Positions 2,670-51,996 of a stretch of 64,000 nt of DNA are shown here, in pieces (the first letter of the stretch is position 1; every line of letters starts with the position of its first letter). A program made the position numbers and the translations under genes. Below the pieces are notes generated by a model that ran no database searches, was not told where the DNA came from, and saw only the letters and a program-made list of their open reading frames with translations. The DNA lies in assembly GCA_947179485.1 (NCBI GenBank), contig OX359250.1:27910654-27974653 (forward strand), read 5' to 3'. This stretch comes from Allacma fusca (Eukaryota; Arthropoda; Collembola; Symphypleona; Sminthuridae).

Positions 2670-3402
2670 CGAACCAACTTATTTTTGTTATTTTTCTAGT
2701 GTTACAATACTGAAGGACTGAAATAATACCCAAAGCCACCATCCAACAAGTAAGCAACCTCCTCCAGTTTCTTTGAGATATCTCGAAATGTGAATGCTGA
2801 TCACTCCAAATGCAATCGTCCCAACAATCATCGACACCCCGTGGATTCACTTGGCTAAATATGAGGATTTCAGTCGTCAGAATATCATCCCAAGAAAATC
2901 TTGCATAGTTATTACATATTTTTATGTAGAAGATTCTATAATAATTCGTCAAATTGTGTGAATATTTTTGAGAAACTACTGATGCACAAATGTCGTAAAA
3001 ACAATCTTTTGTAAATAGTTTGATGTTGGAACAAAAATAAATTACATATGATCTTATAAGTCTTCTCAATGCCTCACGGGTGAATTCGTTATCTTGCGTG
3101 TTACAAGGGAAACAGAGAGGTGGATGAGTAATGTGATAGGTTTCTATTAAATAATTTGTGTATCGATCCACTTCACATCTCGACCTCTCGGGTGTTTTGC
3201 TAACTTTATTCGAAACAAAACTAACATTATCTCGAAATTGCTGTGTGAAAAATGATTTGCTTTCTAGAATGCAGCTGTCATAATCATCTTTGTACTCCAA
3301 ATGTGCCTTGTTCTCGTTTCCGACCGGGACAAACCACGGTTTGTACTTTTGTAGACATGACACTTAAAATTATTGTACCAATCCACGTCGTATGGGTACT
3401 GG

Positions 3403-4604
3403 AGGAGTATCGAGATAAGCCCTCCGACATTTCTCCTCCACACATAATCCCTCCGGATATATTCCCTCCTGCAGTTGGAGATTATCCCTCCGTCGCATGG
3501 GTTGGTAGTACGACAGCAAGAGTCACTTCAACTAAGATTGCAGTTGCTATAGCAACTGTGATTCCTAATTCATTGCACACAAATCATAAAAAAGCCAATA
3601 AGAAATTCTTATTTCGCCAATAATTACAAATCTCTGGCTGACTCATCAATCATGTTTCAATGTTTTTATACAGCTACTTTAAAATTAATTGTTTGTGATT
3701 TTGATAGCATATTGTGTACAAATAAATCGCTGTAAATTGCAAATGTTTCCTTTCCCGTTTGATTACTCCCGAAATGTAATCCCGACCCTAAACCTAACCA
3801 CTAAACCTAAATAAAGCTACTGCTATTTGCAATAATCACTGTAGTATATAATCTAACTAAATATATTAATCCAGCATTGATTTTATTTATTGACTACATA
3901 GCGTTAGCTTGGAAAAATGCTTCTGTTGTTTCAAACAGAGGGATTATCTCCATTTTTGGAGGGATTATCTACGGAGGGATTACGTCAGAGGGGTTGTCTC
4001 CGGAGGGAATATCTCCCGAGGGAATATATCCGACCCAGAGATGCGCAGCCTTCGAAGGCTAGCCTTCCAAAAAGGCTTCCTTGAAGGCGGAAAGGTAACT
4101 TTCTTATCGTTGCAGAAGGAATGGAAGGATGTGGATACTTTTTTCTGAAGGCTGAAGGAAGCCTTCACAAAAACCAGCAGTGAAGGATTGTAAAGGAAGG
4201 GTTCCTAAATATTAGCCCTCTAAGGCCGTGAAGGCTTCCAGGTACACGAAATATCTATAATGTGAAAGCATAGCATATGCAACGACGTATAGCTGCCAGC
4301 GCAACAATACAGCCAATTCGTGAACTCACAACTGACAATGTGTGCCCGCTCTCTTCACTGCACTGAATCCTACTGGGACAAAATGTTTTTAAGCGGGTTG
4401 TAGTTTAAAATTGAAGGAAGGCTATTTTTAGAAGAAGGCTGAAGGCAAAAATGAGTGTATGTATTTTGGAAGGAAGGGTGAAGGAAGGCAGATTTTTTAG
4501 AGGGCTTCATTCTACGACATGTTGAAGGGGAAATTTTTACTGAATTTTTGCCTTCGAAGGCTTGAAGGAAGGCTATTTCCTTTGCGCATCTCTGATCCGA
4601 CCAC
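3403..4604. mobile_element. hAT-type element, body motif GGAGGGAATATCTCC
   Basis: Flanked by the 8-bp duplication GGTACTGG (3395-3402 and 4605-4612); copy B shows one uninterrupted GGTAAGGC at this spot (about 22868). The left arm is filled with CCCTCC...GGATTATC-like units and the right arm with the complementary GGAGGGATTATCTCC units. It hosts the element at 4036-4594. The insertion breaks a coding exon of pseudogene copy A. Confidence 0.7.
4036..4594. mobile_element. hAT-type element, body motif GAAGGAAGGC
   Basis: TIR CAGAGATGCGC at the left and GCGCATCTCTG at the right, 8-bp duplication ATCCGACC (4028-4035 and 4595-4602). Both arms consist of degenerate GAAGGAAGG / CCTTCCTTC units; a related degenerate stretch lies at 29250-29460. 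Nested inside 3403-4604. Confidence 0.85.
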
Positions 4605-4632
4605 GGTACTGGATACTGGATATAGTAAAAAT

Positions 4633-5557
4633 CAAAGGTGTCCAAATGACTCAGCCTACCCTATATCCTTCCTATATTTAATATTAGGACCGAGCCTACA
4701 AATATGCCTACATTTAAACTGCCGAATAGATCAGCCTACCCTATATCCTTCCTATATGGGGAACACCAGGCCTACATATAAGCCTACATTTTATTGACAA
4801 ATAAGCTCAATGTATTTTACACTCTTCCTACATATATACTTTTCTTTAGCGACAGGATACTAAGGGCATTCTGTGGTTTTCTAATTAAAACCCCTGCCTC
4901 AAGTCAACGGGATTGGAATAAAACAGTTTGAGTTTAGCCACCTTGGCCGAAGTTTCTAAGATCAAAACAGTTTGTCGATCTCGGCTTGGTTTGCACTCGA
5001 AAACTTGCCGAAGTTTCATAACTTTGTTGAAAAGTGATGCTGGACTCGAGATTTCACAAATTAAATACCACAAGAAACATTTTCTAATGTGAGCAAAACA
5101 ACTCAATTGTGACAACGGAAAGGTATTAGGTGACTGACAACATATTTCGTAGGAAATCCTGTTTGAAATTCGAATTTTGTTCAAACGTAAATATTCGCAG
5201 CTTTTCTTTATCGAATATTTCGAACTTATTTTCGGTGAGGTTTCAGCGAAGATCAAGGCGAAATGGCACACAATTTTCACTCTTGGTACACACCATAAAA
5301 CATACGATCTGCAAAGCTGGCAGATTATTCTTTAATTTTTATGTTACCCGTTCCATATGCCATAAATTGAAAATTATGTGCTTCAGTAGCTACGTATATG
5401 CGTGTAATTTCACGACGGCTGGGTCTACCTATTTTGTAGGATAGGGTTCAAGTGTATTTTCTTGTACCCTATTTTGCCTGTAAACCTATTCAGTAAAATC
5501 CTTGCACCCTATAAATAGCCTACAAATAGGCCTTTATAGGATAGGCGGACACCTTTG
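4633..5557. mobile_element. hAT-type element, body motif CCTACATATAGG
   Basis: TIR CAAAGGTGTCC / GGACACCTTTG, 8-bp duplication GTAAAAAT (4625-4632 and 5558-5565). Arms repeat CCTACCCTATATCC and CCTACAAATAGG-like units. The centre (4880-5440) is non-repetitive and contains open stretches but nothing I recognise. It shares TIR style with 24995-25618 and 50067-51988. Confidence 0.85.
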
Positions 5558-7793: not shown

Positions 7794-8247
7794 TAGTGAT
7801 GCCAATGGTCTGGTCTGATCCAGATTTTATGAAACTGGTCTGGTCCAAAGCACAGACCAGACCATTGGTCTGGTCCAGTTTTTCGGGCCAGACCAATGGT
7901 CTGATCCAGTCGTTCGGACCAGACAAGACCAAAGACCATGGTCCGGACCATGGTCCAGAAAACCATTGAGGGCAATTGAATAATCACATTTTATCCAGTC
8001 AAATTTTTCTTTTATCCCCAGAAATGACATTTTTAATTTGTTCCATAGGATTTCGTTAGCTCAAAAATTTTTATTTTGCGTACTTTTGGGGCCATTTTCC
8101 TGTGGTCTGGTCTGGTCTGGTCCTCTCCTCTGGACCAATTGTATCTGGTCCAAGTGTTGGATCAGACCGGACCAGACCATACAAGTTTGGGACCAGACCA
8201 ACAACGGACCATTAATAATGGTCCAGACCAGACCATTGGCATCCCTA
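7794..8247. mobile_element. hAT-type element, body motif GGTCTGGTCC
   Basis: TIR TAGTGATGCCAATGGTCTGG and its right-end complement TAGGGATGCCAATGGTC. Perfect 8-bp duplication ATAACGAC (7786-7793 and 8248-8255); copy B has one ATAACGAC in the same context near 24369. Arms repeat GGTCTGGTCC / GGACCAGACC. The same family recurs at 30084-30287. Confidence 0.92.
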
Positions 8248-8944
8248 ATAACGACAAGAGACGTCCACGTAGTTGTAGTTCAAGTGAAAGTCCCTCGTTT
8301 TTGTATCGCTGGCATGCATATACGTAAACATATGGGTGCTATAAAAAATACAGATATACATTAAAAATGTACTTGTAGTAGTAGTTATTTATCCACAATC
8401 CACACAGCTTTTAATTGTATGCTTAATATTGAGTGGAAATTTTCTGGTACAGGCTGTGCGGGACGCCAGGAAATCATTTTTCACACGTTCACACCCTTCA
8501 ATCATTCACGCAGCTCGTAAATAATAATAGTTTAAATAATATTGCACTACGCTTTTTTAGCCTTTTGCTTGTAGAATGTTAAAATCATTTTACATCATAA
8601 GCGTGACAGCGTGAGTAAACACCAAGAAAATTTGGGTTTTCCAACAAACTATCAATTTTCAAACCGGGCTTAATAAAAATGTTGATTGAAAAATTACTTT
8701 TCAGAATTTACGTGGGCATTACATAGTGCAAACTAAGTGGCACCCCTGGTTTGAGAATTATCGTCAATGCAAAAACTCAACGATAATTTTGCAAAAACCC
8801 CATATATTCACCTAGGTCATCGTTGAAGTGAATTTATAAAATCCCCAAGAAAATACAGACAGAATGGGCGCACTATGTTCACTTTTAAGCTATGGAAGAG
8901 GAGATTATAATGAATTAAATATTTATTACAGTCCTGACAGGAAT

Positions 8945-10289
8945 CATTAGAAGCGATAGATTGCAACGACCAGGTATAATCATAAACGAAACGAAACTAC
9001 TTGGCTGTGTCACTAGCGCAAGTGTCTGTATACAAAGAAACAAGCAACTCCGCGGTTGGCAGCAGTGCTTCTGTTGGGGACAAAATTCTTGTCCCGTCCC
9101 CGTCCCGTCCCGTCCCGATATTTTTTAAAAACCTTTGTCCCCAGTCCCGTCCCGACAACCGGGACACGGGGACAAAAACCATGTCCCCGTCCCGTCCCCA
9201 AAAATTTATAAAAACGTTGTCCCCGGTCCCGTCCCGAAAGTCGGGACATGGGGACAAAAATCTTGTCCCCGTCCCGTCCCCAAAATTTTTAAAAAACGTT
9301 GTCCCCGGTCCCGTCCCGAAAGTCGGGACATGGGGACAACAACCTTGTCCCCGTCTCTTCCCCAAAATAAAAAAAAAATATTGTACCCGGTCCCGAAAAT
9401 CGTGGAATGTGAACAAAATTCCTGTACCGTCCCGATAATTACTAAAAACAGTTGTCGACATTCCCATACTGAAAATCGGAACATGAGGAAAATTTCATAC
9501 AAAAAATATTTGTATCAAACACATAAAAAACGCATTTATAGAATCGTGGCTCCAAGATTCTTCCTGAACTTTTTGAGCAACAAGCCTCATTTTCTACAAA
9601 GGTGAAATAGTGTTCACAGAATAGTTTACTGATGAGCATTAAAGCTGAAACGTTATCCTTGTTCTGCTATGCTTGCTCGTCCCGTCCCGTTATATACACG
9701 ACCAAAAAGCATGTCCCGTCCCAAATATAGTGGGGACAATTTGTTTTGTCCCCGTCCCGTCCCTGATATAATGGGGACAATTTTTTTTGTCCCCGTCCCG
9801 TCCCCGATATAATGGGGACATTTTTTTTTGTCCCCGTCCCGTCCCGAATATAATGGGGACAATTTTTTTTGTCCCCGTCCCGTCCCGAATACGGCATGGG
9901 GACAATTATTTTGTCCCCGGGGACGTCCCGTCCCGGTCCGTCCCGTGTCCCGACGGGACGTCCCTGTCCCCGGCAGAAGCTCTGGTTGGCAGTTCTTATA
10001 GTTAACCACAGTAATCCATACCAGCAGGAATCCTTGAAGTACCCAAAAATACTCGGGCACAGCACCCATGGGTACAGATATTTTACATAGTGATACCTGT
10101 ATCTATTGGGTACTACCTGATTGTCACTGAGTGAGTACCCATACTCGTACCAGTACCTGTACCCACTTTAATGTCTAAAATCCAGAGTAACCGGGTAGTA
10201 CCCGCGTACTTGCGAGTACCCAACTTTTGTACCCGGGTAGTACCCGTACCCATTTACCCGAGTAATACCCGTACCCAGTCCGAGCACTG
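8945..10289. mobile_element. Truncated copy 1 of the CAGTGCTCGG hAT family
   Basis: Right terminus ends in CCCAGTCCGAGCACTG, preceded by GTACCC repeats; the left part starts inside the family's cargo region (equivalent to about 48260 in the full copy), so the left end is missing. It replaces the part of copy A that corresponds to B 25650-26500, which points to a deletion that used or followed this insertion. It hosts 9063-9984. Confidence 0.75.
9063..9984. mobile_element. hAT-type element, body motif TTGTCCCCGTCCCGTCCC
   Basis: Ends CAGTGCTTCTGTTGGGGACA (left) and complement of CGGCAGAAGCTCTG (right), with 8-bp duplication GTTGGCAG (9055-9062 and 9985-9992). About five units of GGGGACAA...TTGTCCC(C)GTCCCGTCCC in the left arm and five in the right arm in inverse orientation. 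The long ORFs across it on both strands are by-products of the repeats. Confidence 0.92.
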
Positions 10290-11824: not shown

Positions 11825-12716
11825 CATACCTGGGCGTTTCGTTTGCACTCGCACTCACCTCGCACTCAATTACAATGGTGGATCTTTAAACTCCCCTCGC
11901 GCTCGCACTCATGAGTTGTGCCCCGCTGCACTCAAACTCCTGCCTCAAAGTACTCTCCCAAAATTTTTGCACTCGCACTCATAGCTTGAGTGCCCTCATA
12001 GCCCTCTCGCACCATCGAGTGGGTGTTATAATTATTAATGGCTGGATTGAATACCCGGATCTCCTTTACCAACAACGTTTTTTTCGAAAACAACGTCTCA
12101 CAATTAGTTTTGTGGTTACTTGTGATAGATCTCACCCCTCTCAATGAACTTGGTGTTTAATCATGTTCCCCCGTTTTAGCTAATACAAGATAATACTAAA
12201 TATGTATTTATACTTCATTTTGTGGAAATTTTTTAATATTTCTCAAATGATTCCTTGACAAATTAGTCAAAGCAGCTGTATTTGATGGGGCTCAATTTTT
12301 TCCTCAAATTACAATTTAGAAGTCGGGACGCTGATACCTCTGAAAAAATTAACTAAAGTCCAGGGATGTGGAATATTTTGAGATGTTGTATTTGAAATAG
12401 TACTTGAAATGCATTCCGTATTTTGTGTTTAGTATTTTTCAAGTCGTAAATTTTTTTAAGGTATTTTGCATTTGACATTTTGTAAGTACTATACTTTCTA
12501 GTGTATTTTCTATTTCGTATACCCTAGTTGTGAGTGCAAAACACTGCACTCAGCCTCTGCCTCTTGAGTGCACATAATTTGAATGATCACTCTACCTCAT
12601 TACTGTGAGCGCAGAAATTTCAAATCGGAACTCGCACTCGCACTCAATTTGAGTGCGTTGAGTGCGAGGCTGAGTGCGAGGCATGCACTCAATGAGTGCG
12701 AGTGCGCCCAGGTATG
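11825..12716. mobile_element. hAT-type element, body motif GAGTGCGAGTGC
   Basis: TIR CATACCTGGGCG / CGCCCAGGTATG with perfect 8-bp duplication GATGAGAG (11817-11824 and 12717-12724). Arms are GCACTCGCACTC on the left and GAGTGCGAGTGC on the right. The centre (about 12363-12530) contains GATGTGGAATATTTTG and TTTGAAATA units resembling the 32821-33751 family, probably an older nested piece. Confidence 0.88.
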
Positions 12717-12810: not shown

Positions 12811-13708
12811 CAGTGATGCGCCCGTTACGTTACTTTTATCGATAATAACGGAATAACGCCGTTTTTTAACGTAACGGCCTATACTTGGAGCAGGCAATAA
12901 CGTAACGGTAACGGAACTAGGGTGTGCTAAACATTTATCAGAATAACTATAACGCTTAAGCGTGTGTAAACAGAAAACGATATTGTAACGTAACGCTATC
13001 AAATAAATATATGCATGTACATTATTATATACTACTTGCTTGGAGTAACTGTGCGTGCAAATAAACGGGGGAAATATTAACAACTTGAGTTGGTTGTGGA
13101 TACCCTGATCCTTGAGCATCATTTATGTATACGTTACTGAAAACATGGCAAATTTCAATAGGAAGTTTTTGACCTTTTATTTTGCTCAATCCACACGCTT
13201 TTGCTCACAAAAAAACTATGTGTGATCGGCTTACGAATTCCGTTTTGGTTCTATCGAAGTTTTTAGTAGATAAGAACTAACCATGGAGAATACTGCTGCT
13301 AGTAAAAGGAGAAAAATGAATTTGAAAAAAGGACAAATGTTGAGATTACCACACCGGGTAGTCGGGATGCGGATCAAATTGCAGGTGAATCAAGAACTAC
13401 ACAGAAACTGTAAATTGCCTTTTGCTACATTTTCTGCATACCAGGTACGTCTGGCAACACTAGTTGTTGACATTTTATTTTATAACGACCGGACAATAAT
13501 AGTGACGATAACGGAATGTAACGGCTATTTTATATTTTTAATGGTAACGAAAATTAACGCTGGAGTATTACCGTTGTCTTGTAGTAACGGAACGGTAACG
13601 CTGAATTTTTCATACGATATTTAGTAATGTAATGATAATTAACGACAATTTTAAAACCCATCATAATAGTGTAACGTAACGTAACGAAACTGCTAATGCG
13701 CATCTCTG
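12811..13708 (+). mobile_element. hAT-type element, body motif CGTTACGTAACG, copy 1
   Basis: TIR CAGTGATGCGC / GCGCATCTCTG, perfect 8-bp duplication GCTTTAAG (12803-12810 and 13709-13716), inserted in repeat H. Arms repeat GTAACGTAACGG and similar. The centre holds a spliced coding exon (13283-13444). A second copy lies inverted at 28314-29200. Confidence 0.92.
13283..13444 (+). CDS. Leftover first coding exon inside a CGTTACG-family element
   Basis: ATG at 13283 opens a lysine- and arginine-rich stretch (MENTAASKRRKMNLKKGQM at its start) and runs 54 codons to a consensus donor CCAG|GTACGTC at 13445. The element at 28314-29200 has an exon of the same length (162 nt) with the same start and donor and only a few replacements. 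I infer an N-terminal exon of the parent element's protein, kept after internal deletion; no diagnostic transposase motif is visible and the rest of the gene is missing, so it cannot make a complete protein. Confidence 0.5.
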
Positions 13709-14068: not shown

Positions 14069-14467
14069 CAGGGTTGGCAAATGGCAAGAAATGGCCTGGC
14101 CGTTATTGGTTAAAATCCGGTTCTTACCAGCTTGGTCCAATTGCTTGGGTTGGTATAAAATTGTCGTAATTAATATTATCCAAATAAATCCACTATCCAA
14201 TAAAAACCGGTTTTAACCAAAACGTACCACCGGCTTGGCTATTATTACGCATGCATGAACACAGGGTTGCCAAGTGGTCAGAAATGGCCTGGTTATTATT
14301 GGTTAGAATCCGGTTCCGACCGGCCCGGACCTATTGTATAGACTGGTATAAAATGGCCATAATTAATACTATCCAAATAAGTCCACTGTCCAATAAATAC
14401 CGGTTGTTACCATTTCATGGCACTGGCTTGGCCTTTATTGCTAAAAGCCGGTTTTTTGCCAACCCTG
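14069..14467. mobile_element. hAT-type element, CAGGGTTGGCAA ends, dimer-like
   Basis: TIR CAGGGTTGGCAA / TTGCCAACCCTG with perfect 8-bp duplication GTTATAAG (14061-14068 and 14468-14475). Body of GGTTATTGGTTAAAATCCGG-like units. A second left end (CAGGGTTGCCAAGTGG) starts at about 14264, so it looks like two copies head to tail or one nested in another. Confidence 0.85.
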
Positions 14468-15621
14468 GTTATAAGCAAATATTAAAATTTGAGCACACAA
14501 TGTTAAATTTTAAAAATTTGCCTTTTTCCAAAACGTCCTGACATTGTTCCTATATACGGAGTTTTAGAACTAGCAAGATGAAAAAATGTGGAAGAATATT
14601 GAAACAATTCATAAGGGAATTAAAAATATTTGCCATTGCCCCTTAGATGGGATAGAGTGGGTGGAAATCGTATATTGGGCCTATACATTGACCACTAGCA
14701 CAGTAAGTACGTACATCACACAAGCACAAAGACCACAGGAAAAAATCGTCGCTTCGCAACGATTCAACGCGCCCCTCACGGGGCGCACTGCGAAGGGCAG
14801 CGCAGCTTTGTAGAGGTTTTTAAATAAAGTAAAATTTGTGTAGAGAGGATGATAGTTCATCGGAGAATATGTGCCAAAATAATTTATGCACAAAATGATA
14901 CACTCACCGTGTACTTTGTTGGCAATAATCGTATTGCTCGTACTACCATATTGATTTGTTGATTGTGTTATAGTCTCTGGGATCCTCTGCTCCATAATGC
15001 TTTGTATTGATGCTATAAGTAGTGTTTGTTGTTAATTTGTAATAAAGTATTAAATTTTAAGCACTTAAAGTTTAAATGTTTATGAAACAATATTTATGCA
15101 TTATTGGGTTGTAGAAGATGATAAAGAAAATTTTTGACCACATTCAGCAACTGATGTGCTTATGGTATGTAAAGTTACTATATAAAGTTTGGTTGAAGTC
15201 TGATAAGAAATGGCATAAAAGTGCATAGTAATACATATATGACCTTTGATGAAATAATTTTTTACGGTCAAACTGCGTGAACGATTTTGACCACAATCAG
15301 CGACTGAGGTGCTTATGGCAGTGCTCGGACTGGGTACGGGTAATACTCGGGTAAATGGGTACGGGTACAGGTATGGGTACTACCCGGGTACAGAAGTTGC
15401 GTACTCGCAAGTACGCGGGTACTACCCGGGTACTCTGGATTTTAGACAATAAAGTGGGTACAGGTGCGGGTACGGGTATGGGTACTCACTCAGTGACAAT
15501 CGGGTAGTACCCAATGGGTACGGGTATCACTATGTAAAATACCTGTACCCGTGGGTGCTGTACCCGAGTATTTTTGGGTACTTCAAGGGTTCTTGATGGA
15601 ATGGTTTACTATGGCTAACAA

Positions 15622-16869
15622 CAGGCCTGGCATTCAAGTTCAAGTAAAACTTGACAAGTTCATGTCAAGTTCAAGTTCAAGTCAAGTTCGGGTCACAAGT
15701 TAATTTGAACTTGATACTGAAACCTCAAGTTTGGGTCAAGATGAAATTTGAACTTGATTTTAAGGCTCGAATCAAGTTCGTGGTCAGGTCTTCATTATAG
15801 ACTTGACATCAATACCATGATCAAGTTCGGATCCCATAACCCCAAAACCATGAACATGAACTTGACTTTTCATGGTCAAGTGTCAAGTTCTTATACTCAT
15901 ATAATACGCTGTGGATAATCGTTCTTATGCAGATCTCCTTGCTGAAGCTGTAAACGCTAATTTAAATCACAGCGTTTTCGCGTGCAAATGCTAGACCGGT
16001 ATTTCTGTGTTTTCAACGAGCAACGTGTTCCGGGCTCAAATATTAGAAGCAATATCTTTCCTGTTGTATTTTCTTCTTCACAACATCTTTTTAATTTTAA
16101 CTTGATTTAAATTTTTGAATAATCATATTATTTTAAAAACAACTGGAAAATGAGCACATCTGAAAAATCTCAACAGTGCGAAGAAGATGCTGATCCTGGA
16201 AGTCTAACTCCATCAAGTAGCCAGAAAAAATGGCCTAAGGTCCACAAGCATTTCAGATTTTGCGATTCTACAAAAAAATACAGCTGCAAACACTGCTCGT
16301 AAGTGTATTCATATATATTTCAGTTGTCCTGGCACAGACTTACTAACTCCTAAAAGAATGTCAGACATCATTTGTGTTTGTCTGTGCTTGAAGGGATGGT
16401 TAAAATTCAAATCTCAAACCAATTTTGATGAAATCCGTGCCAATGCGGTCATTCAAAAAATCATACGGGAAATCTAGTTATTTTTATATTCTCTTATTAT
16501 AAGTTTTATCAGTCATTACTTCTAAATTTTGATATTCTATTTTAAAAAATAAATGGAATTTAAATCTCAGGTAATTTGTTAGCCTTTCTAATTATAAGTA
16601 TACATACAACACTATAACTAGAAATTCAAGTTCATGGTCAAGTTCATGGTCAAGTTCACGGTCAAGGTTTTTCTGAACTTCATGGTCAAGTTCCATTCAT
16701 GGTCAAGTTCGCCGAAATTAACTTGATTATGTGAACTTGATTACTCCGGTTCGTACCTACTTTTAAAAAAATCAAGTTCAAGTTCGGATCTTAATTTTGG
16801 TGATATAATCAAGTTCGGGTCAAGTTCAAGTGCGAATCATTAGTTGAACCGAACTTGAGGCCAGCCCTG
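15622..16869 (+). mobile_element. hAT-type element, body motif TCAAGTTCAAGT, with BED-finger exon
   Basis: Ends CAGGCCTGGC and GCCAGCCCTG, perfect 8-bp duplication GCTAACAA (15614-15621 and 16870-16877). The uninterrupted site is present in copy 3 of the host family at about 48390. Arms consist of TCAAGTTC / GAACTTGA units. The centre keeps a coding exon (16150-16298) of a hAT-type transposase, so this is an internally deleted non-autonomous derivative. Confidence 0.92.
16150..16298 (+). CDS. First coding exon of a BED-finger hAT transposase (remnant)
   Basis: ATG at 16150 opens MSTSEKSQQCEEDADPG, a hydrophilic acidic leader, then KKWPKVHKHFRFCDSTKKYS and CKHCS, ending at a consensus donor GCTC|GTAAGTG. 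The aromatic-rich WPKVHKHF followed by CxxC is the expected first half of a BED zinc finger, the DNA-binding domain at the N-terminus of many hAT transposases; the two histidines would be on the next exon, which is deleted. Downstream is only TCAAGTTC repeat. It ties the surrounding terminal-repeat elements to the hAT superfamily independently of the 8-bp duplications. Confidence 0.7.
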
Positions 16870-18744
16870 GCTAACAATAAGACCTACCAACCGTGGAGTT
16901 GCTTATTTCGTAGTATACAGATACTTGTGTTAGTGACAGAGCCAAGTGGCTTCGTCTCATTTATGATTTCGTGGTAGTTGCAATCTAACGCTTCTAATAA
17001 TTCATCCAAGGAATCTAATAAAGAAATAGAGCGTAGAGTCAGTGAAATCATCTGTTTATCGACTTAAATAGTGAAGCTCATCAACGAAGAATTTCAAAAG
17101 GGAAGTTCTTGGGATTCAATTTAATTATCTTCATTGGGAGCGTAACATTACAATTATTTGAAGACGTATTACGAGATAAGATCGGAATAAATATACATTT
17201 ATTAGCAGATCCATTTCTTAACGTTACAAGTACCCAGGGTTGTCCATTTGAAAACGCCAAGGCATTTTATGCAGGCAATTTGAGCATTTTCAATTCTGGG
17301 TATTTATGACACTTTGAGTATTCATTGAGGTGAATATTTATAACATTTTAGAATGAAAAATATCATTCCTTGCACGCAATATTTATATTTCAGTCCCTTT
17401 GATTAATCTTGATAATTTTGATGTTAAAAGAACTTGACAGACATCTGAACTTGGCGTTCAAAACTTCCATGGGGTTGCATTTTAGTTCTATTTTGCCTGC
17501 ATTTTTCGAAAATCTCCGTCTCGGGCTTCATAAATGTGAGAGACAGTTTACGGATGTTTGTTTTATAAAGCTGTAATATAAAATGAATATTCAATATTGC
17601 CTCCCACATTTATTTCCTGAAACCGCAATATTTGACTTGGAAAAATTATGATCAACTCAATTTTTCCGTTTAACATTTTCTATACACAGAGTTCGATTAG
17701 CCGGAAAAAAAATTGTTTCTTGTTCTCCAAGTTGAAAAGCAAGTTATGGAGAGTTTAGTATTAAGAATCCGTCCCAATTCCAATTAGCGAGAACATATTT
17801 CATTTCATTCAGCAAGTTATTATTTTGGGGTAGTAGGATTTGAATTTCGTCAGTGTTTATTAAAAAAATCACACAATGCCTTAAATAATTTTTTCAAAAA
17901 ATTCAAATAGGATGTCTTTAACGCCTAGGGAAAATTCCCAAAATCCCGGACACTTTTAATGGAGGTCAAAAAATTGACAACTTGAAATTTTTCAGCTGGG
18001 CAGGCTAATGTCGTCGGGGATTTTAAATCGGCCAAACTTCCAGTACCCGAGTAATACCCGGGTACACACAATAGATACTCGGGTACGGGTACAGGTTTTG
18101 GGTACATTACGGGTACGGGTAAATTGTGGGTACAGGTACTACATTGTATTTTCAGGTACGGGTACGGGTACTGAAATAATTTACCCGGGTACTCGGGTAT
18201 GGGTACGGGTATAGGTACAGCATTTTGTAGTACCCGATATTCGGGTACGGGTATGGGTACGGGTACACGGTTTCTGTACCCAGTCCGAGCACTGGCTTAT
18301 GGTATGTAAAGTCACTATATAAAGTTTGGTTGAAGTCTGATAGGAAATGGCATAAAAATGCATAGTATAACTAGAAATAAATTTTACGGTCAAACGGTTT
18401 GACCGATCTACACTAAAATGTATCCCAGAGGTCGCTAAGGTACGATTCTTTGCTTCGTAATTTTTGGTTAAAATCGGTTAAGCAGTTTCTGAGTATTTGG
18501 GGTCGAAGGCAAGTGACCTGAGATGAAATAATTTTTTCAGGTCAAACTGATCGACCGATTCTGACCAAAATCTATCCCAGGGTATTTTAGCTCACTACGC
18601 TTTGCTGTGTAAATTTTGGTTCAAATCGGTTGGGTAGTTCGTGAGTATTCGTGTTCGAAGTGTCGGACGTACGGACGTACGGACACCAGGACGTACGTCC
18701 ATCACAGTTGCATAAGGGCGCTGCGCTGCCCTAAAAAGGGCATG

Positions 18745-29200: not shown

Positions 29201-29249
29201 GTAAGCGTTGTGATGAACAACTTGTAAGGTAAAGTGTAGGCAGAGCAGA

Positions 29250-30083: not shown

Positions 30084-30287
30084 TAGGGATGCCAATGGTC
30101 TGGTCCGGACCATTTGTGATGGTCTTTTATTGGTCTTTAATTGGTCCAGCTTCAGGACCAGACCATAGGAACATGTATGAGTTAACGAAATCCCATGGAA
30201 CAATTTAAAAATATCAATTGTGGGGATAAAACAATGATTGTTTAATTGCACTGGTCTGAGCTTTGGACCAGACAATAGGCATCACTA
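30084..30287. mobile_element. 204-bp hAT-type element, GGTCTGGTCC family
   Basis: Ends TAGGGATGCCAATGGTCTGG and complement TAGTGATGCCTATTGTCTGG, perfect 8-bp duplication CAAGCTAC (30076-30083 and 30288-30295). Short relative of 7794-8247. Confidence 0.9.
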
Positions 30288-30974
30288 CAAGCTACTATGT
30301 TGCATCTTGCATCTTGGTATTCGTATGGTTAATTCGAATTAACTGCCACTTGCTTATTATGTACGAATTTGAATATTTAGTACAGTGTGGCTAATATGAT
30401 TAACACATTATGATTAGATTATTTTACAGTCATGATCTTTTAACCAACATAATTAAGTTTGAACAAAATCTCCAGCAAATGGCCTATACTTTCGTGCAGA
30501 GCTGCGCACAAGTACAAGTAGACCACGAGTATTTCAAGTTAAGTTCGCGTTCGGGTCGTGGTCAAGTAAATAAAATTAAACCCATGAACGGTTCGTGTCG
30601 TGTTCAGGTATTTCATGGACTTGACCATGATTTCTTACCTGAAGTCAAGTTCGTGGTCAAGAATAATTATTTTACTTGAACCAAGTACTTGGTCAGGTTC
30701 AAGTAAATATTTAGAAGTACTTGACCACGAACTTGAGTTTTTCGTGTACAAGTTCAAGTAATCATGTTTGCGCAAGTCTCCATGGCTGATGGAGTTTTCA
30801 ATTCACTTACGATTCACTATACTAAATAAAACTTCAAGCGGAATTTTAGTGCATCATTTTAAGAGGCCTTAGTTAACTTGTTCCGTGTGTAAACACAAAA
30901 CAATACTCAACACTCATATGGCTCGGCTCCGTAGAAATTGATTTAAAAATGTTTACCCATTTTTACAATAGTAT

Positions 30975-32131: not shown

Positions 32132-32139
32132 GGGTAAGA

Positions 32140-33880: not shown

Positions 33881-34578
33881 GTCAACTATCCCGCCGTTTA
33901 ATGTTGCCCAACTACTTTGGCCGCTTTTGTCAACGATCCCGGATCGCAGGATCGGGAACTTTTTCCACACCCGAACCAGAGTAGATCTCCATTGTACCAA
34001 CATTCTACATTCAGTGAGAAGGACCAAAAATACAATTTTTGCTTTTAGAGGCGGTTGCTCGTATGATGCTGGGTGAAACCTAGTGTGTTAGAAACGAAGT
34101 AGAAGTATGTTCACGTACACACTTCACAAATATAAATTTTTCTCCAATAAAATTTAAGTATTTTGGTGTCGTACAAATCAGATTTCTTGTACTTGAAAGT
34201 TCAAGTTCATGGTCAAGTTCGGGTCATGGTCATGTCAAGTTAACGTTGGACCCGAAACGCGCGTATAAAATCATGGTCAAGTAATCTGAGAATTACTTGA
34301 AAACCCGAACTTGTTCCATTCAAGTATTACTTGAACTGAAAGTGTCAAGTTCGGGTTATCTTGAAATACGTACTTGAGAAGACGGGGTCAAGTCAAGTTC
34401 GTGGTCGGATCTTTATAAATGCTTGACCCGAGCGCAGCACTACTTTCGTGCATATAGTTGACTCGCTCATTTTACCATATTAATAATTAGCCCACTCGAT
34501 TTTAAAAATAATTCGCCACTGGTGTTCGCCTTTAGCGAGAGAGTCGCTGTCATTAATCTTATTGATATTACACTGGAA

Positions 34579-40202: not shown

Positions 40203-41710
40203 TCCAGAGGTTCCAGAGGAGCATTTTATTTCTAGAGCAAGTTTCTAACATTCTAACTAGACAATCATCAATTTTCAGGAACCTCAACAATTAGAAGTAA
40301 CTACGATTATAAAGCGTATTTCCAGGCATTTATCTTGAGAAAAATGTATTATAGACTATGTACATAGATATTATACCTATAAGCAGGCGCGTAGCCAGGA
40401 ATTGGCCAAGGGGGGGGGCAACATTAATTAGAACGTACATATGTAAACTGGCACATTCTATGGGAAATCCAATTCACGAATGTAAAACTCATCAAATTTT
40501 GCAAAATGAATTTCAGATTTTAAAATTCTATACGTTTTACGATTCCATCAAATTTGAATAATTTTGGACCTGATTTTTAATTGGGCTTGATCCGATTTCG
40601 GAGAATTTCGAGACCTGGGTTCGCTTCTATCGTTTCAGCTGGTGCTAAACCTACTGTTCCTGTGACACACGTCTTTGCTTCGAAAAGAAACTGCGGATAT
40701 CAGGCGTGCTTGACCTTTTCATAATGAAGAATTAAATACAATTCATTAATTTAATAATTCTATCCAGCTTAAAAATTCCCTCGAAGCGATGCGTGTAAGT
40801 TACAGAAGCTAAAAGCTTTTAATATGAAAATATTTAAAGCCGCTGTTACCATACTTTTGTTGCCGTTGAAGGTTGAAGACAAATCGACGAGGCAAAGGTC
40901 AAAGTGAAATCGGGATTTCGCAATGCATTCAAATCACCCGCTAAGCAAGGATGAACACAAAAGTATAATCTAGAATCACCCAAAACGTCTCTTTATTGAA
41001 TGGTTTATTATCCACGGCTTCTTCCCGTCAAAAGTTGACCCATCCATACTCGCGAAAATCGTATCGAAATGATTTCCATTTCGATAGAAATTTATTGATC
41101 TAGAAATCCTTTGCTCTCGCAATGGACAACATTGCGATACGATTTTCGCGCGTATGGATGGGTCAATTTAATTACGGGAGGAGCCGTGGGTAATAAATCA
41201 TTCACACGAAACATCCAAACGTCATGGGTGATTCTAGAGTTATGCTGTTTATACACAGATATTTACATGGAATACTGCATATGTTGAGTTTCGAAGTGAT
41301 TTTTTTTACAAATAAAAAAATGTACTGTCAAATCACTAAAAAGGTTTGCATGTCTCAGTATGGACTGATTTATTTTTAACTTTTTGAGTGATTTGAGAGT
41401 ATTTTATTTCGAATGGGGGGGGGCAATTGCCCCCTTTGCCCCCCTTGGCTACGCGCCTGCCTATAAGTAAACTACGGGATAGCTATCAACTTGTCCCATG
41501 TACCGTTTATTAATTCACACTTATAATGGGCATACATGGGAATGGTTGTTGAGACGTTTTTCTTTCTGTCCTGGATAAGTAAATACTTCATCCTACTTCC
41601 AAATGCAATTCATGCAAGGGTCCTTGAAAATTAATCCTATGTAGCTTCCTTTCACGGACATGAGGAAGATACAAACCAGGAGTACTACAATTATGCTAAT
41701 GGTATCTAAA
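40203..41710 (-). pseudogene. 3' fragment of the membrane protein gene (copy C)
   Basis: 40203-40383 plus 41460-41710 match the 3' flank and last-exon region of copies A and B. The reading VCIFLMSVKGSYIGLIFKDP then CMNCIWK ends at a TAG where B has a tyrosine codon (WKYDE). Upstream exons are missing; similarity stops near 41700. It is split by the element at 40384-41459, close to the former stop codon. Confidence 0.75.
40384..41459. mobile_element. hAT-type element with CAGGCGCGTAGCCA ends
   Basis: TIR CAGGCGCGTAGCCA at the left and TGGCTACGCGCCTG at the right, perfect 8-bp duplication CCTATAAG (40376-40383 and 41460-41467). Long G-run next to the left TIR and C/G runs at the right. Copies A and B have a single CCTATAAG or CATAAG-type sequence here. 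It contains a nested palindromic insertion at about 40966-41242 (AATCTAGAATCACCCA ends, inner arms GACCCATCCATAC / GTATGGATGGGTC). Confidence 0.9.
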
Positions 41711-43032: not shown

Positions 43033-44162
43033 CAGTGATGGGTAACGTTATTGATTAACGTTAATGAATAACGTTATTATCGATAAAATCCTAGTAACGG
43101 TTAATGAGAAATAACGTTTAACATATTCCACTTGATTAACAAAAACTTAACGTAAACCCAAACCTCTGGACAGCAAATAACATAAACCGAATCACAATAA
43201 CGTTATTATCCGTTATTGAAAATCCTTTAAAAAAAACTTTTACAATTTACTGCCATCTCTTAAAATTAGATGTAAGTTTTTCAAATCTAAAAATCGTTTC
43301 ATGCAATCGTAAAACATTTAGGTATACTGATTTGCTTTATAAATTTGCGTTTATTTCATTATGTGCATAGTAGCAAAGCGTGTTAAAAAAGAAATACTAT
43401 ATTCAGCTAATTATACGCATCAAAATATATTTCGGTGACCTGAGAGTTTTTTGTAAAGTTACTGTACGTATGTGCATATACATTTCCGACGGATGTGAAG
43501 CACCTTCTAGGATATCACAACTGTTCATGCAAGTCATTATAACATTCGCGAAAATGATAAATTGTCTAAATGTATATTTGATAATGATACACAAACAACA
43601 TATTGCAAATAAATAGAAACTGTTCCATATTTCCATGTTAGATTTCATTTTACATTTTAAAAATTAATTAGCGATTAACTTGACGTGCAATCATCAGTTA
43701 CACATTGTCAACCACAATTACTTCATTTTGATTTTAGAACAAATTGGCATTTTTCGTTTAATCAGAAATGGGTGTATAGACTATTATTACTGGTTACACA
43801 CAGTTTAGTTATCCTGAAGCTACTTGCATGAAGTCAAATTATTGTATCCTGGAAACAAACGTTACGAAGACTTCGGGAATAAATAAAAACAATATTAGTT
43901 CTAATAATTATAACTATTAACCATGCTTAATGGAGCTTTAGATTACAGTGAAAAAATTCAGAAAAATTATTTTATCAACCGTATTCATTATTGTTAATAC
44001 TAACCGTTATTAACCGATTAACGCTACTGAATCCATCTGCTAACCGTTTATAACCATAACCGAATTCTTAAAAAACCAATAACGAAAACGAAAACCGAAT
44101 TCAAACTATCATTACCGTTTGAGCAGTTAACGTAAACCCAAATTTTCGGTTGCCCATCACTG
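43033..44162. mobile_element. hAT-type element, body motif ATTAACGTTAATAACG
   Basis: Ends CAGTGATGGGTAACG and complement CAGTGATGGGCAACC, perfect 8-bp duplication ATTTGAGC (43025-43032 and 44163-44170). Arms of AACGTTATT / AACCGTTATTAACCG units. The centre (43260-43900) has an 80-codon ORF on each strand that I do not recognise. Confidence 0.92.
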
Positions 44163-46885: not shown

Positions 46886-47004
46886 CAGGGATGGGAAATT
46901 TACAAAGACTACCTGCAGGATTGGATTAACGGATTAAAGGTAAAAATTCCGATCACTTGGATTGGATTAACGGATTCAAGCAAAAAATTCCGATCACCTG
47001 GATT

Positions 47005-48682
47005 CAGTGCTCGGACTGGGTACAGAAACCGTGTACCCGTACCCATACCCGTACCCGAATATCGGGTACTACAAAATGCTGTACCTATACCCGTACCCAT
47101 ACCCGAGTACCCGGGTAAATTATTTCAGTACCCGTACCCGTACCTGAAAATACAATGTAGTACCTGTACCCACAATTTACCCGTACCCGTAATGTACCCA
47201 AAACCTGTACCCGTACCCGAGTATCTATTGTGTGTACCCGGGTATTACTCGGGTACTGGAAGTTTGGCCGATTTAAAATCCCCGACGACATTAGCCTGCC
47301 CAGCTGAAAAATTTTAAGTTGTCAATTTTTTGACCTCCATTAAAAGTGTCCGGGATTTTGGGAATTTTCCCTAGGCTTTAAATACATCCTATTTGAATTT
47401 AAAAAAAATTATTTAAGGCATTTTGGGATTTTTTTAATAAACACTGACGAAATTCAAATCCTACTACCCCAAAATAATAACTTGCTGAATGAAATGAAAT
47501 GTGTTCTCGCTAATTGGAATTGGGACGGATTCTTTAATACTAAACTCTCCATAACTTGCTTTTCAACTTGGAGAACAAGAAACAATTTTTTTTCCGGCTA
47601 ATCGAACTCTGTGTATAGAAAATGTAATACGGAAAAATTGAGTTGATCATAATTTTTCCAAGTCAAATATTGCGGTTTCAGGAAATAAATGTGGGAGGCA
47701 ATATTGAATACTCATTTTATATTACAGCTTTATAAAACAAACATTCGTAAACTGTCTCTCACATTTATGAAGCCCGAGACGGAGATTTTCGAAAAATGCA
47801 GGCAAAATAGGACTAAAATGCAACCCCATGGAAGTTTTGAACGCCAAGTTCAGATGTCTGTCAAGTTCTTTTAACATCAAAATTATCAAGACTAATCAAA
47901 GGGACTGAAATATAAATATTGCGTGCAAGGAATGATATAATCATAAGTCATAAATACCCAGAATTGAAAATGCTCAAATTGCCTGCATAAAATGCCTTGG
48001 CGTTTTCAAATGGGCAACCCTGGGTACTTGTAACGTTAAGAAATGGATCTGCTAATGAATGTATATTTATTCCGATCTTATCTCGTAATACGTCTTCAAA
48101 TAATTGTAATGTTACGCTCCCAATAAAGCTAATTAAATTGAATCCCAAGAACCTCCCTCTTGAAATTCTTCGTTGATGAGCTTCACTATTTAAGTCAATA
48201 AACAGATGATTTCACTGACTCTACGCTCTATTTATTTATTAGATTCCTTGGATGAATTATTAGAAGCGTTAGATTGCAACTACCACGTAATCATAAATGA
48301 GACGAAGTCACTTGGCTCTGTCACTAACGCAAGTATCTGTATACTACGAAATAAGCAACTCCACGGTTGGTTGGTCTTATTGTTAGCCATAGTAATCCAT
48401 CCCATCAGGAATCCTTGAAGTACCCAAAACTACTCGGGTACAGCACCCACGGGTACAGGCATTTTACATAGTGATACCCGTACCCATTGGGTACTACCCG
48501 ATTGCCACTGAGTGAGTACCCATACCCGTACCCGTACCTGTACCCACTTTATTGCCTAAAATCAAGAGTACCCGGGTAGAACCCGCGTACTTGCGAGTAC
48601 GCAACTTCTGTACCCAGGTAGTACCCATACCTGTACCCGTACCCATTTACCCGAGTATTACCCGTACCCAGTCCGAGCACTG
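47005..48682 (+). mobile_element. Full-length copy 3 of the CAGTGCTCGG hAT family
   Basis: TIR CAGTGCTCGGACTGGGTAC at both ends, perfect 8-bp duplication CCTGGATT (46997-47004 and 48683-48690). Arms of GTACCC units. The ~1-kb non-repetitive centre is nearly identical to that of 15319-18294 and includes ORFs at 47689-47874 (plus), 47948-48148 (minus) and 48206-48418 (plus); the first two are open in both copies. No transposase motif recognised. Confidence 0.93.
47948..48148 (-). CDS. Conserved ORF in the centre of the CAGTGCTCGG element
   Basis: 66 codons, starting MGFNLISFIGSVTLQLFEDV, with ADPFLNVTSTQGCPF and AFYAGNLSIFNSGYL further on. The counterpart at 17109-17309 has the same length and start and only two replacements that I see. 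It may be an exon of the parent element or captured host sequence. A start hydrophobic segment and an N-glycosylation-type NVT could suggest an extracellular fragment. Function unknown; two recent copies are expected to match even without selection. Confidence 0.3.
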   Translation of the reverse strand: MGFNLISFIGSVTLQLFEDVLRDKIGINIHSLADPFLNVTSTQGCPFENAKAFYAGNLSIFNSGYL

Positions 48683-50066
48683 CCTGGATTAGATTAACGG
48701 ATTAAAGGTAAAAATTCCGATCACCTGGATTGAATTAACGGATTAAAGCAAAAAATTCCGATCACCTGGATTGGATTAACGGATTAAAGCAAAAATTTCT
48801 CATCACCTGGATTGGATTAAGGGATTGAGGGAAAAAATTCCGATCACTTGGATTGGATTTGGGGATTGACGGCAAAACTCCAAACGTTTGGATTTGATTA
48901 AAGGTTTGATGAATAAAATTTAGATTGGATTTCCAATAAAGATGCAGATATTAAGGATTGATGAACAAAATCAAAAAATCTCTAATGGATTGGCACATAG
49001 ACCAATTTAAATCTTATATAAATGAGTCTTACGGGTCAACATTTCTTAAAACATACTTAGATCGTTTGCGATATTCCACCATAAATTCGGTAATTCATAT
49101 TGGGATAATGCGATGACGCAAATATCCTAATAGTTAGTTCAAATAACAAGGTTGGTCCCATTTAGTCAAAGACATTAGTACGCAGTAAATTACTGTGGAT
49201 GGAGCGGAACCAGGAATAGTCTGCTTAAAATAGAAAGATATAGGCCAAATCGCAATTCCAACCTACATATTTATGATACACATTTAAATTATTATATTAA
49301 GCAGCTGAAATACTAGTAATCAAAATATGCACATATTTGAGGCAAACTTAAAGAAAATTTGTTACTCCGTAATTAATACAAAAAAGCTTAAAGCTCCTAC
49401 TATGCTCCCACGTTCTTTTCTCAGATTTATATTTCTACAAACTATAACGGCATGATTCCTGTTTGAAATCGCTGGCCTTGGAATTGTAACATGTCAACAA
49501 ACACACGATACATGTTCATTATGAAACCGCTAGATGTTGAAAAACGTGAGCAAAATGTAGCAATGACATAGCAGGAGATATAATCCAATCCACACTACTG
49601 ATAGCAGTGGATTTTGGGATTAGGATTGACCAAATAATTCACCAAGGTTTGGATTCGGATTGGGGATTAATTTGTTGTTAATATGTAAATAATTGGATTA
49701 AACAAATAGATTAAAATGAAAGCATTGAGCCGGGATTGAGGAATAAGGATTAGATTCAAGTTTCCCCAACACTTGGATTGGGATTCGGATTAATTAATTT
49801 TTAAAAATTTTGTAATCCGGGATTAATTTAATCCCGTATTAATAATCCATTACCATCCCTGGTTACTACCGCTGATAATATTCCTCAGTTTAAAAAGCTA
49901 GTAAATAAATCCCCGTACTTTTCTTGTAGAGACGAAAATTTTATTTTTTCAAGTCTTAAGATCCCTAAGAATGAACAGAAAAATGTCTTTAGCAGGATAG
50001 CAGATAAAAGATTAAATTTAAATTTTTATAAGCCATTATTAAGTACAGAGAATTATTACTGTGCAT

Positions 50067-51988
50067 CAAAGGTGCTAGCCTATCCTGCATGTAGGCCTAC
50101 AAGTAGGCCTATTTATATGATGCGAGCAATTTTCAGAAAAAATTATAGGCAAAATAGGGTGCACTGGGTTTCGCAGAAAAAATGCCTATAAAATAGGAAA
50201 TGCACGCCTGCATACAAGCGGTCATATAGGTATACATTTAGGCAGCACGAGAACACGCTTGTATGAAGGGAATTATATAGGATGTATGTGCATAGAAAAT
50301 ATTATGTAGGGTGCAGGCTTCTAACACAAAATATTCTGAATATACAATGTTGTTAACTATAACTTAAACTATTGATACATTATAGAAGTTTTCTCTCAAT
50401 GCAAACCAAAACTACTGCAGGAACATCTGAGATTTCCCATTCAAAATAATATTCATACAGAACTCATACTTACTGTAACGTGCCGTACGAGTTTTCACAT
50501 AATGCATGAGTAACATTAATTTTGTAGAAGTACTCACAATCAGTTTGTTTAAAAAATTTGACTACATATAATAGTAGCAAACAATTGCGAGTGTTTTCTG
50601 AGTAATTGTTGCATATGAGAGCTGAGGGCTTGGCCTAAATTTTTTCTAAACTAATGTTATTATTAATAAAGCTGCCAGATGTAAATAAGCAAAATAGTAG
50701 ACTTTTTAATTTTATGTCAAAATTTATTCCGTATTATAAAAACAATTTACCTATTTTGGAATTTTCTTAAAGCGATTTAACAACCACTCTCTGAAAATAT
50801 GCGGTATATTGTTTATTGACAAGTAATTACTTATGCTGCATCTTAATATTAATAACTAATAAATACTTCAGAGGTCAGAGGAATGAATTTGTTTCAACAC
50901 ATTTGTGTCATCAAGTTGCATATCATAAAAGGATACACAATCCCATTCTAGAATAACTTTTACGGCTGTCATTGCTTCCAGAAATTCCACGGACATATTT
51001 GATAACTCCTGCGTCCACAATTTATTGATAAAAATAAAGACTCAAAACTCAGAGACAGCCTTGGTTTCTGAACCAAGCACAGAACCCAGTTTGTGCTGAC
51101 AAAAATATTTCTAGCAAGACAATTTTATAAGAAATAAATGTCGAAAGAATCTTACCTGGAAGTGAAAGTAAGTACTCAACTAGGACTGTCATAAGCAGAT
51201 TCTTCAATGTTAAAGTACTTTTATATACTTTTTTGTAAGCCATTGTTGAAAGTACAATCTCCCATTTTAATTTTATCAGGTTAAATAATAGCATCCGGAC
51301 ACGGAGTATGTACTTACATTTAAATAAAAGCAACTATTCTAACTACTATGCTAACGGATACAATAAAAATAATTAATGGTGATTTTTACTACTTCACAGT
51401 ATTGCAGTTTGCTGCAGAAATGAAACGATGGACAGAATTAGAATTCAAATGATAGACCTAATTACGTTTGCACTGAAAGACGTTAGTGCTTCGACAATTC
51501 CCTGGCACCAAGTTCTAAAATGTTCGATAAGTTTCGCTTGATCGTGCTGACATTTCAAAGCACAGAATATATTTACAAGAGTTTAGAAGCCTTTTCAATC
51601 AAATAGTAGACTGAGTAGATCCCACGATTTTTTAGCAAACTGTTTTCCCAAATAGTAGCTAGTCTACTAAAAAAGTAGGCATCTGGCAGCTTTATAAGTT
51701 ATTATGTCCAAAATAAATTTACTAAAATAAAAACAGCAAAACGTTATGTAATTATGCATTTTAATAAAATTATAATTTATTTCTACAGTATAGGGAAGGG
51801 TCGCATGTAGGAAGGAGCTAACACTTTCCGTTACCTTATATAGGCAGAAATGTAGGCAGTGTCAAATCCCTACTTGTAGGCAAGGATATAGGCCATAGCA
51901 ATTGCACAAATAGGTGAGAAGGAAGGCTCCTCCTAAACTAAATGTATAGGTAGGATGTAGGATAGGCAAAATCATTTTAGCATCTTTG
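50067..51988. mobile_element. hAT-type element, body motif GTAGGCCTATTTATA
   Basis: Ends CAAAGGTGCTAGCCTATCC and complement CAAAGATGCTAAAATG, perfect 8-bp duplication CTGTGCAT (50059-50066 and 51989-51996). Arms repeat TATAGGATGTAGG / CCTACAAGTAGGCC units. It hosts 50664-51697. Confidence 0.9.
50664..51697. mobile_element. hAT-type element, CTGCCAGATG ends, TAGTAGACT units
   Basis: Ends TAATAAAGCTGCCAGATG and complement TTATAAAGCTGCCAGATG, perfect 8-bp duplication GTTATTAT (50656-50663 and 51698-51705). Subterminal AATAGTAGACT / AGTCTACTA units are few here; the centre (50750-51590) is unique, with an unrecognised ORF at 51049-51333 (minus). Confidence 0.85.
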
Positions 51989-51996
51989 CTGTGCAT

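Follow-up and report, generated by a model that had tools for sequence, protein, structure and literature searches.

Why do so many transposable elements in one stretch of the genome of the collembolan Allacma fusca have ends filled with a short, repeated motif? The question arose from a sequence-only reading of a 64,000-nucleotide stretch of contig OX359250.1 (positions 27,910,654 to 27,974,653 of the forward strand; hereafter the window), which listed 20 hAT elements and took them for about 20 families in which a motif in the arms had repeatedly expanded. We find that the window elements belong to the hAT superfamily, most of them being short deletion derivatives without coding capacity, and that the outer 150-250 bp of each end are enriched for a short, family-specific motif, heavily so in about half of the elements. 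Judged by homology, the arrays appear to descend from hATs that encode a transposase and share this layout, with partners found for three of 16 families. The explanation we favor, with a probability of roughly 0.74, is that these are hATs with amplified, putatively transposase-binding subterminal repeats, which the deletion derivatives inherited from coding hATs. Elements are designated below by their start positions in the window (Table 1).

Window elements are hAT transposons flanked by 8-bp duplications

The 8-bp flanking duplications ascribed to the 20 listed elements held throughout: once the ends were refined, an exact duplication was present at every one, 18 directly and the remaining two (30497 and 3403) after nesting was undone on paper. 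When the window was scanned blind for inverted ends with exact 8-bp duplications on either side, 28 pairs were returned, compared to 0, 1, 0, 1 and 0 in five Markov-shuffled windows, with a few of the 28 corresponding to matches internal to other elements. The short inverted ends of hATs have the consensus YAGNGNTG, and ends of this type were found in most families, as the earlier reading had stated, but those of 3403 and 34579 are weak and imperfect, and those of 11825, 27449 and 31058 fit the consensus only loosely. The listed elements are real, but grouping by terminal inverted repeat (TIR) and motif reduces the supposed 20 families to 16. Two more families with duplications, represented by 14069 and 31058, lie outside the list. 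Alignable pairs are 7794/30084 and 30497/31103, while 4633, 24995 and 50067 have a TIR and motif in common and no alignable body at the cut-off used.

Element 3403, which has imperfect ends and a motif that is inverted between its arms, is split by the nested element at 4036-4594; this family has many copies in the genome, and among eight of them the 8-bp duplication was exact in two and near-exact in others. The element at 31058-33973 hosts both 31103-32102 and 32821-33751. As a side observation, the four elements within 30497-34442 occupy three nesting levels, with CAAGT_A copies at the outermost and innermost, and so provide a relative dating series. Element 14069, for which the motif excess was not significant, has two tandem halves of ~193 bp enclosed by a single pair of ends, and a doubled copy of this kind adjoins the hAT transposase locus L026 (about 447-846).

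Element ends are enriched for family-specific motifs

Arms were scored by the occurrence of the best 8-mer, with at most one mismatch, in both arms pooled (236 bp each, less in 7794 and 30084, ends excluded), against a background of 200 non-element segments (95th percentile 6, maximum 8). Of the 20 listed elements, 19 had a best 8-mer count of 7-14, which is above the 95th percentile of the background, and 14 exceeded the background maximum; the sole miss was the 204-bp element 30084. Compared to order-2 shuffles of an element's own arms, a severe control since short motifs are retained, 13/20 elements reached p ≤ 0.05. When ends were scored singly on both strands (background 95th percentile 6), an excess was detected at both ends of 10 elements, at one end of four, and at neither end of six (3403, 4633, 12811, 30084, 34579 and 43033). 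The per-end test is weaker than the pooled-arm test, and the distribution of its scores indicates that the layout is graded from dense to faint. The earlier description of arms made of a motif therefore applies to nearly all elements when arms are pooled, but to both ends individually in only half of them. Dense arrays are present in the GTCCC, GGGTAC, CAAGT_A, CAAGT_B, AAATAC, GGATT, CCTATA (24995), GGTCTGG and GGCAAA families; several other families have faint ones.

The enrichment was also apparent in word coverage, calculated from words occurring at least four times in one element for each of the 18 window families. Coverage was 0.55 in the outer 150 bp and ~0.25 from 250 bp inward, with background segments averaging 0.16, and strips of motif positions showed mostly empty cores. 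Tandem Repeats Finder called arrays in several arms. Two control elements, 40384 and 50664, had pooled best 8-mer counts of 4 and 4, that is, no excess, and neither end of either passed singly, though their word coverage was not low (0.33 for 40384 and 0.25 for 50664, against a background 95th percentile of 0.27).

We also noted higher-order units of ~40-42 bp (also 82 and 123 bp), near four turns of DNA, that are common to unrelated families. Spacings of 21, 31, 41, 53 and 82 bp looked like multiples of ~10.4 bp, but helical phasing is unproven: of the six settings of a family-weighted test, a single one (k = 8, 15-65 bp; p = 0.002) reached p ≤ 0.01, and at 10.4 bp the others gave values of 0.08-0.31.

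Copies of the same family span the arrays and differ by whole units

For three families, we scored 40 genomic copies each. For GTCCC (9063), 35 copies, the window's included, are full length and 92-100% identical; 29 of the 35 are 910-922 bp, and the lengths of the remaining six depart by +40, -42 (in three), -46 and -57 bp. Twenty of the 40 scored copies, again counting the one in the window, retain their full length and are 99-100% identical, which points to recent activity. For GGATT (46886), 29 copies in addition to the window's own span array and core at 88-93% identity. Extra array matches extend 123 to 410 bp outward depending on the copy, mostly in 41-bp steps (offsets taken by hand), indicating that array length differs between copies. 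For CAAGT_B (15622), 34 copies are full length, and among ten that were aligned, two have 12 and 36 extra bp at an array of 12-bp units. All three qualify as miniature inverted-repeat transposable elements (MITEs), with short copies of similar length and no intact transposase. Given the many full copies that span the arrays and the unit-step differences in their lengths, the arrays are inherited, yet change by whole units. The possibility that they are microsatellites expanded after insertion, which the sequence-only reading had named as a potential refutation, does not hold for GTCCC, GGATT and CAAGT_B.

Conservation of the arms relative to the core varied. Between 30497 and 31103, 478/500 arm sites are identical compared to 416/496 core sites (arms 95-96%, core 84%). 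Divergence of arms and core is equal in CAAGT_B (2.2% each); arm identity is not higher for 12811/28294 and is little higher, on one side, for 15319/47005.

Transposase-encoding hATs carry arrays in their arms

The genome (392,743,791 bases in 91 contigs) yielded 150 scored matches over cut-off to the hAT dimerisation domain PF05699, out of 860 first-look candidates. We compared the ends of the window elements with 50 transposase loci, some of which are copies of one another. A homologous arm, correctly placed and pointing around the transposase, was found for three of the 16 families (TTACG, GAAGG and AACGTTA); no partner was found for the other 13 listed families among these 50 loci. The TTACG partner (TTACG_30, L030+L049) is 5125 bp long, with an exact duplication, GTCCTTAC, a PF05699 match at 1.3e-15, and TAACG concentrated in its ends (24 occurrences in 600 bp, compared to 5 in the intervening 4525 bp). 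Both of its arms are homologous to 12811 and 28294 (75-83% identity), and an inner stretch is also in common, indicating that the window copies are deletion derivatives. For AACGTTA, both arms of 43033 are homologous to those of AACG_58 (L073+L058; 81-94%) and of AACG_71 (L071+L072; 70-82%), a 2914-bp element with the duplication GCTAGTAG and a 632-codon open frame. For GAAGG, the right arm of L033, whose left end was not found, is 88% identical to that of 4036, and GAAGG_16 (L016; 4206 bp, duplication CTTCCGCT) has a right arm that is 76% identical over 132 bp; left-arm homology to 4036 was not found for these partners. Thus, for these three families, the arms expected on transposase-encoding hATs are present, and the prospect that autonomous partners would lack the motif was not borne out.

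CAAGT- and GGGTAC-like stretches beside the transposases L018-L021 were rejected as partners because they either face outward from the gene or represent independent insertions, and a match at L010 is a fragment and apparently intronic. No PF05699 match was obtained for those parts of the window elements that were compared with Pfam. As for the RNase-H core of hAT transposases, a hAT-like match (E = 0.015) was under the cut-off. Element 15622 contains a possible remnant of a transposase first exon at 16150-16299, with a splice-like end and a CxxC seen by eye, for which there was no Pfam or structure match. A scan of viral contigs for the TIRs gave no match.

For a broader view, we scored the arms of 12 bounded elements spanning PF05699: TTACG_30, GAAGG_16, AACG_71 and AACG_58, found through window arms; t65, t55, t64, t52 and t68, found through long open frames; and t15, t32 and t34. 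Among 14 loci completed upstream, eight could be bounded, while t56, t70, t25, t13, t69 and t66 were dropped for unconvincing ends; GAAGG_33 was also dropped, having no left end, for a total of 7/15 further attempts dropped, all before arm scoring. The duplications are exact for 10 of the 12, t64 has one mismatch, and AACG_58, which was bounded by homology, has flanks matching at 6/8 positions. In the pooled arms, the best 8-mer occurred 9-21 times (mean 14.3), compared to 5.7 in pairs drawn from the element's own middle (p = 1.7e-5). For 11 elements, the arms outscored all 12 middle draws; AACG_58 gave a tie (9 vs 9). In the long-open-frame set, arm counts for t65, t55, t64, t52 and t68 were 13, 20, 10, 14 and 21, against middle means of 5.2-5.9. 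Scored singly, both ends exceeded the background 95th percentile in six of the 12 elements, one end in three, and neither in three.

Individual words illustrate this distribution. CGGATA occurs 27 times in the arms of t55 and 28 times in those of t32, and once in the ~2.7 kb between; these two look like one family, so the 12 elements are not independent. TCGGTT is found 22 times in the arms of t68 vs once between, and TGAACT 16 times in the arms of t34, all one way, vs 5 between; for t65, the top 6-mer is weak (5 in the arms vs 3 between). Elements with more similar transposases also have more similar arm word spectra (Mantel r = 0.67, p = 0.004) among eight of the 12 elements, the four without an extracted protein stretch being left out. 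Three close pairs carry this signal: t15/GAAGG_16 (cosine 0.46), t64/AACG_71 (0.66) and t65/t52 (0.20). Because elements with a transposase domain have arrays too, expansion as a convergent trait of non-autonomous elements, as first proposed, is unsupported.

Words common to both arms are more often direct than inverted

The motif had been described as inverted between the arms. We counted the orientation of word pairs common to both arms, excluding the terminal 16 bp and near-palindromic words, in 22 families, comprising the 18 window families, three of which average in coding members, and four found only elsewhere in the genome. Families with a direct bias outnumbered those with an inverted bias by 18 to 4 for k = 5 (sign p = 0.004), 17 to 5 for k = 6 (p = 0.017) and 16 to 6 for k = 7 (p = 0.053), p values being uncorrected for the three word lengths. 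The bias is moderate, with a mean direct fraction of 0.60-0.62, compared to 0.50 for non-element pairs and 0.51 for element middles. In a single-word version restricted to window families, the direct excess was 13 vs 3 with 5-mers (p = 0.02) and 10 vs 5 with 6-mers (p = 0.30). GGATT, TGAACT, TTACG, CCAACTA and GTCCC are nearly one-way; GGTCTGG, CAAGT_A and AACGTTA are near even; and 11825 and 27449 show a weak inverted bias. Clean inversion was seen for 34579 and 3403, but for most families the description does not apply. With the common words running mostly in one direction, neither end is a mirror image of the other.

A proposed role for the arrays and alternative explanations

The motif most likely represents a predicted subterminal site for the N-terminal finger of the family's own transposase, and an array of such sites would raise occupancy of the end by transposase. 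The gain and loss of whole units observed between copies could plausibly come about through slippage, or when one unit invades another as the gap left by excision is repaired. Words that point the same way would make left and right ends distinct to the transposase, as do the asymmetric ends of Hermes and Herves. It is conceivable, though in our judgment doubtful, that same-way arrays constitute a general end-identity code of hATs, pointing inward at the left end and outward at the right, with motif and DNA-binding finger co-evolving and dozens of natural finger/site pairs in this genome that could be deduced directly from sequence.

Several observations weigh against the arrays being inherited transposase-binding repeats. 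When single ends are scored, there is no excess in six of the 20 window elements, or in the coding elements TTACG_30, AACG_71 and AACG_58, all of the TAACG type. Three of the 12 coding elements (t15, t32 and t34) were chosen after their downstream side was known to be repeat-rich. Partners cover only 3/16 families, the GAAGG match involves one arm only, and the L058 domain match contains a stop codon. TAACG words are common to TTACG_30 and two distant elements, t64 and AACG_71 (cosine 0.34 and 0.35), so that this motif occurs in two distant transposase groups. No BED domain was matched in the stretches tried against Pfam, and a match to the Hermes DNA-binding domain was under the cut-off (E = 0.04). 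Arm conservation is clearly above that of the core in only one of four comparisons, and in Hermes, mutation of inner sites left ~70% activity (PMC10368747).

The alternative that survives best is that the arrays, though inherited, are neutral, having arisen through the mechanics of gap repair during transposition and been tolerated in excess of the few sites that the transposase requires. We take this possibility seriously while thinking it probably incorrect. It would fit the gain and loss of units between copies, the lack of consistent arm conservation and the range of array strength from dense to none, as well as the sufficiency of three hexamers for Ac (PMC3260210) and the tolerance of inner Hermes sites to mutation (PMC10368747). 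The pooled arm excess in coding elements, the association of motif with transposase and the orientation bias all argue against it.

Convergent expansion, in which each family independently evolved array arms because more sites would improve mobilisation, now appears unlikely. The motifs do differ between families, and elements of distant transposase groups (TTACG_30, AACG_71, t34 and t65) all have a pooled arm excess, but subterminal repeats are general in described hATs, such that the layout may be ancestral with turnover of the motif; moreover, the motif follows transposase kinship. Less probable again is that the arrays act by folding, as DNA or RNA, into a foldback, cruciform or hairpin and not by binding protein. 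In a test of 20 segments of 150 nt, folding z scores were -7.8 (7794), -6.4 (31103), -3.9 (4036), -3.3 (15622), -3.1 (9063) and -3.0 (15319), but near or above zero in 4633, 11825, 27449, 32821 and 34579, so strong folding is not general, and the direct bias between arms in most families also speaks against this idea. With a direct bias in 18/22 families and no general folding, the elements do not have a foldback-type layout, in which long inverted arms pair end to end. Finally, although near-identical copies differ by whole units (+12, +36 and ~41 bp) and tandem arrays were called in several arms, the notion that the arms are ordinary mini- or microsatellites that grew after each insertion, with no role in transposition, is highly improbable, being already refuted as the sole explanation for GTCCC, GGATT and CAAGT_B by the copies that span their arrays and countered by the arrays of coding elements and by the crowding of words toward element ends, with few in between.

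If the arrays are indeed transposase-binding sites, each hAT family in this genome would state its own site many times over. The sites of many uncharacterised transposase fingers could then be read and matched to the protein, and a recognition code for BED-type fingers would become testable. The orientation bias offers a checkable idea of how hAT transposases distinguish left from right ends, and the unit-step changes between near-identical copies provide a natural dose series relating site number to movement.

Features of the window

The coordinates of the elements are collected in Table 1. By eye, 29247-29460 is a single GAAGG-type element end (CAGAGGTGTCCAT), similar to that of t15 (L015+L082), a coding element. 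Two long near-perfect palindromes with 14-bp matching ends at 36588-37800 are probably another kind of inverted-repeat element. The stretches 1332-3363 and 21273-23040 appear by eye to be two copies of one hydrophobic-protein gene, for which no Pfam family was over the cut-off in the three frames tried. A gene for a C2-domain protein (C2 at 2.7e-14 and 1.4e-7) lies at 57177-61130; we presume it to be MCTP-like.

Table 1. Elements and unit stretches in the window, with terminal inverted repeats (TIR) and flanking duplications
Position	Feature	TIR	Duplication	Remarks
3403..4604	CCCTCC-motif element		GGTACTGG	duplication at 3395-3402 / 4605-4612
4036..4594	GAAGG/GCCTTCC element	CAGAGATGCGCA	ATCCGACC	
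4633..5557	CCTATA/GCCTA element	CAAAGGTG	GTAAAAAT	
7794..8247	GGTCTGG element	TAGKGATGCCAATGG	ATAACGAC	
8920..10289	third GGGTAC-family copy			truncated; host of 9063-9984
9063..9984	GTCCC element		GTTGGCAG	41/82-bp higher-order units
11825..12716	CACTCG element		GATGAGAG	
12811..13708	TTACG/TAACG element		GCTTTAAG	
14069..14467	GGCCAT-type doubled element		GTTATAAG	outside the original list
15319..18294	GGGTAC element		GCTTATGG	host of 15622-16869
15622..16869	CAAGTT element (CAAGT_B)		GCTAACAA	
19739..20602	GGCAAA element		TTTACAGT	
24995..25618	CCTATA-group element (ACATACA)		GAGGAGAG	
27449..28173	GCCCG element		GTGAGTAT	
28294..29200	second TTACG copy		matching 6/8	
30084..30287	short GGTCTGG element (204 bp)		CAAGCTAC	
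30497..34442	CAAGT element (CAAGT_A)		CTTTCGTG	host of 31058-33973
31058..33973	CCAACTA array-bodied element		AACCAGAG	outside the original list
31103..32102	second CAAGT_A copy		ACTACAAT	
32821..33751	AAATAC element		CTGGGTAA	
34579..35212	ATCCCG element		CACTGGAA	motif inverted between arms
40384..41459	control element		8 bp	without motif excess
43033..44162	AACGTTA element		ATTTGAGC	
46886..49861	GGATTGG element (GGATT)		GTTACTAC	41-bp units; host of 47005-48682
47005..48682	second GGGTAC copy		CCTGGATT	
50067..51988	CCTATA-group element		CTGTGCAT	host of 50664-51697
50664..51697	control element		GTTATTAT	without motif excess
9104-9395, 9713-9919, 46918-47004, 48683-48859, 25057-25146	~40-42-bp unit stretches			

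Comparison with known systems

Motif-rich hAT ends occur in some other animal genomes, and a highly repetitive subterminal sequence is reportedly essential for transposition of Tol2, a single family. Among the open-licence papers listed, with repeat-library reports outside the search, we found no account of comparable arrays in numerous hATs from a single genome, the majority with words pointing the same way, and a literature search with the TIR letters gave nothing useful among the matches listed. Two other elements offer partial likenesses: Tetris, described as a foldback element, is linked to internal tandem repeats and so is alike in its repeats and different in kind, and Galileo is structurally diverse, as are the elements here, but belongs to the P superfamily. 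A paper on a coral MITE (PMC2872659) was not relevant.

The closest parallels are the hATs for which transposase binding has been described. In Ac of maize, the hexamer AAACGG is repeated in the terminal 200 bp and bound cooperatively by transposase, and three hexamers were shown to be required (PMC3260210). As with the window elements, Ac/Ds have an 8-bp duplication, and the Ds2 elements are deletion derivatives that retain the ends; unlike the hATs of this genome, they are one family with one motif (PMC3260210). Kat1 of Kluyveromyces similarly has a hexamer six times between its ends with a polarity that differs between them, but is a domesticated transposase at the MAT locus (PMC4763223). 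In Hermes, BED domains bind AAGT/AAGC, present in 17 and 14 copies at the two ends, with STR2-7 antisense at the left end and STR1-5 sense at the right, an asymmetry that is needed (PMC10368747). If each end is read from its tip, these senses would amount to co-orientation along the element. Scrambling of the inner sequence abolished most activity; Hermes differs from the elements here in its 4-bp motif, and tandem arrays or higher-order units go unmentioned in the available text (PMC10368747). In Herves of Anopheles, CG/AATTCAT is repeated at both ends, and four direct repeats suffice for binding (PMC3143072). Herves thus resembles the present elements as a hAT with a short repeated end motif and ends that are bound asymmetrically, and differs in being a single family with tandem repeats described for the left end (PMC3143072). 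Subterminal repeats, and tandem repeats in one hAT end, that of Herves, are therefore already in print, and the arrays described here are a strong, widespread form of a feature known from Ac, Hermes and Herves.

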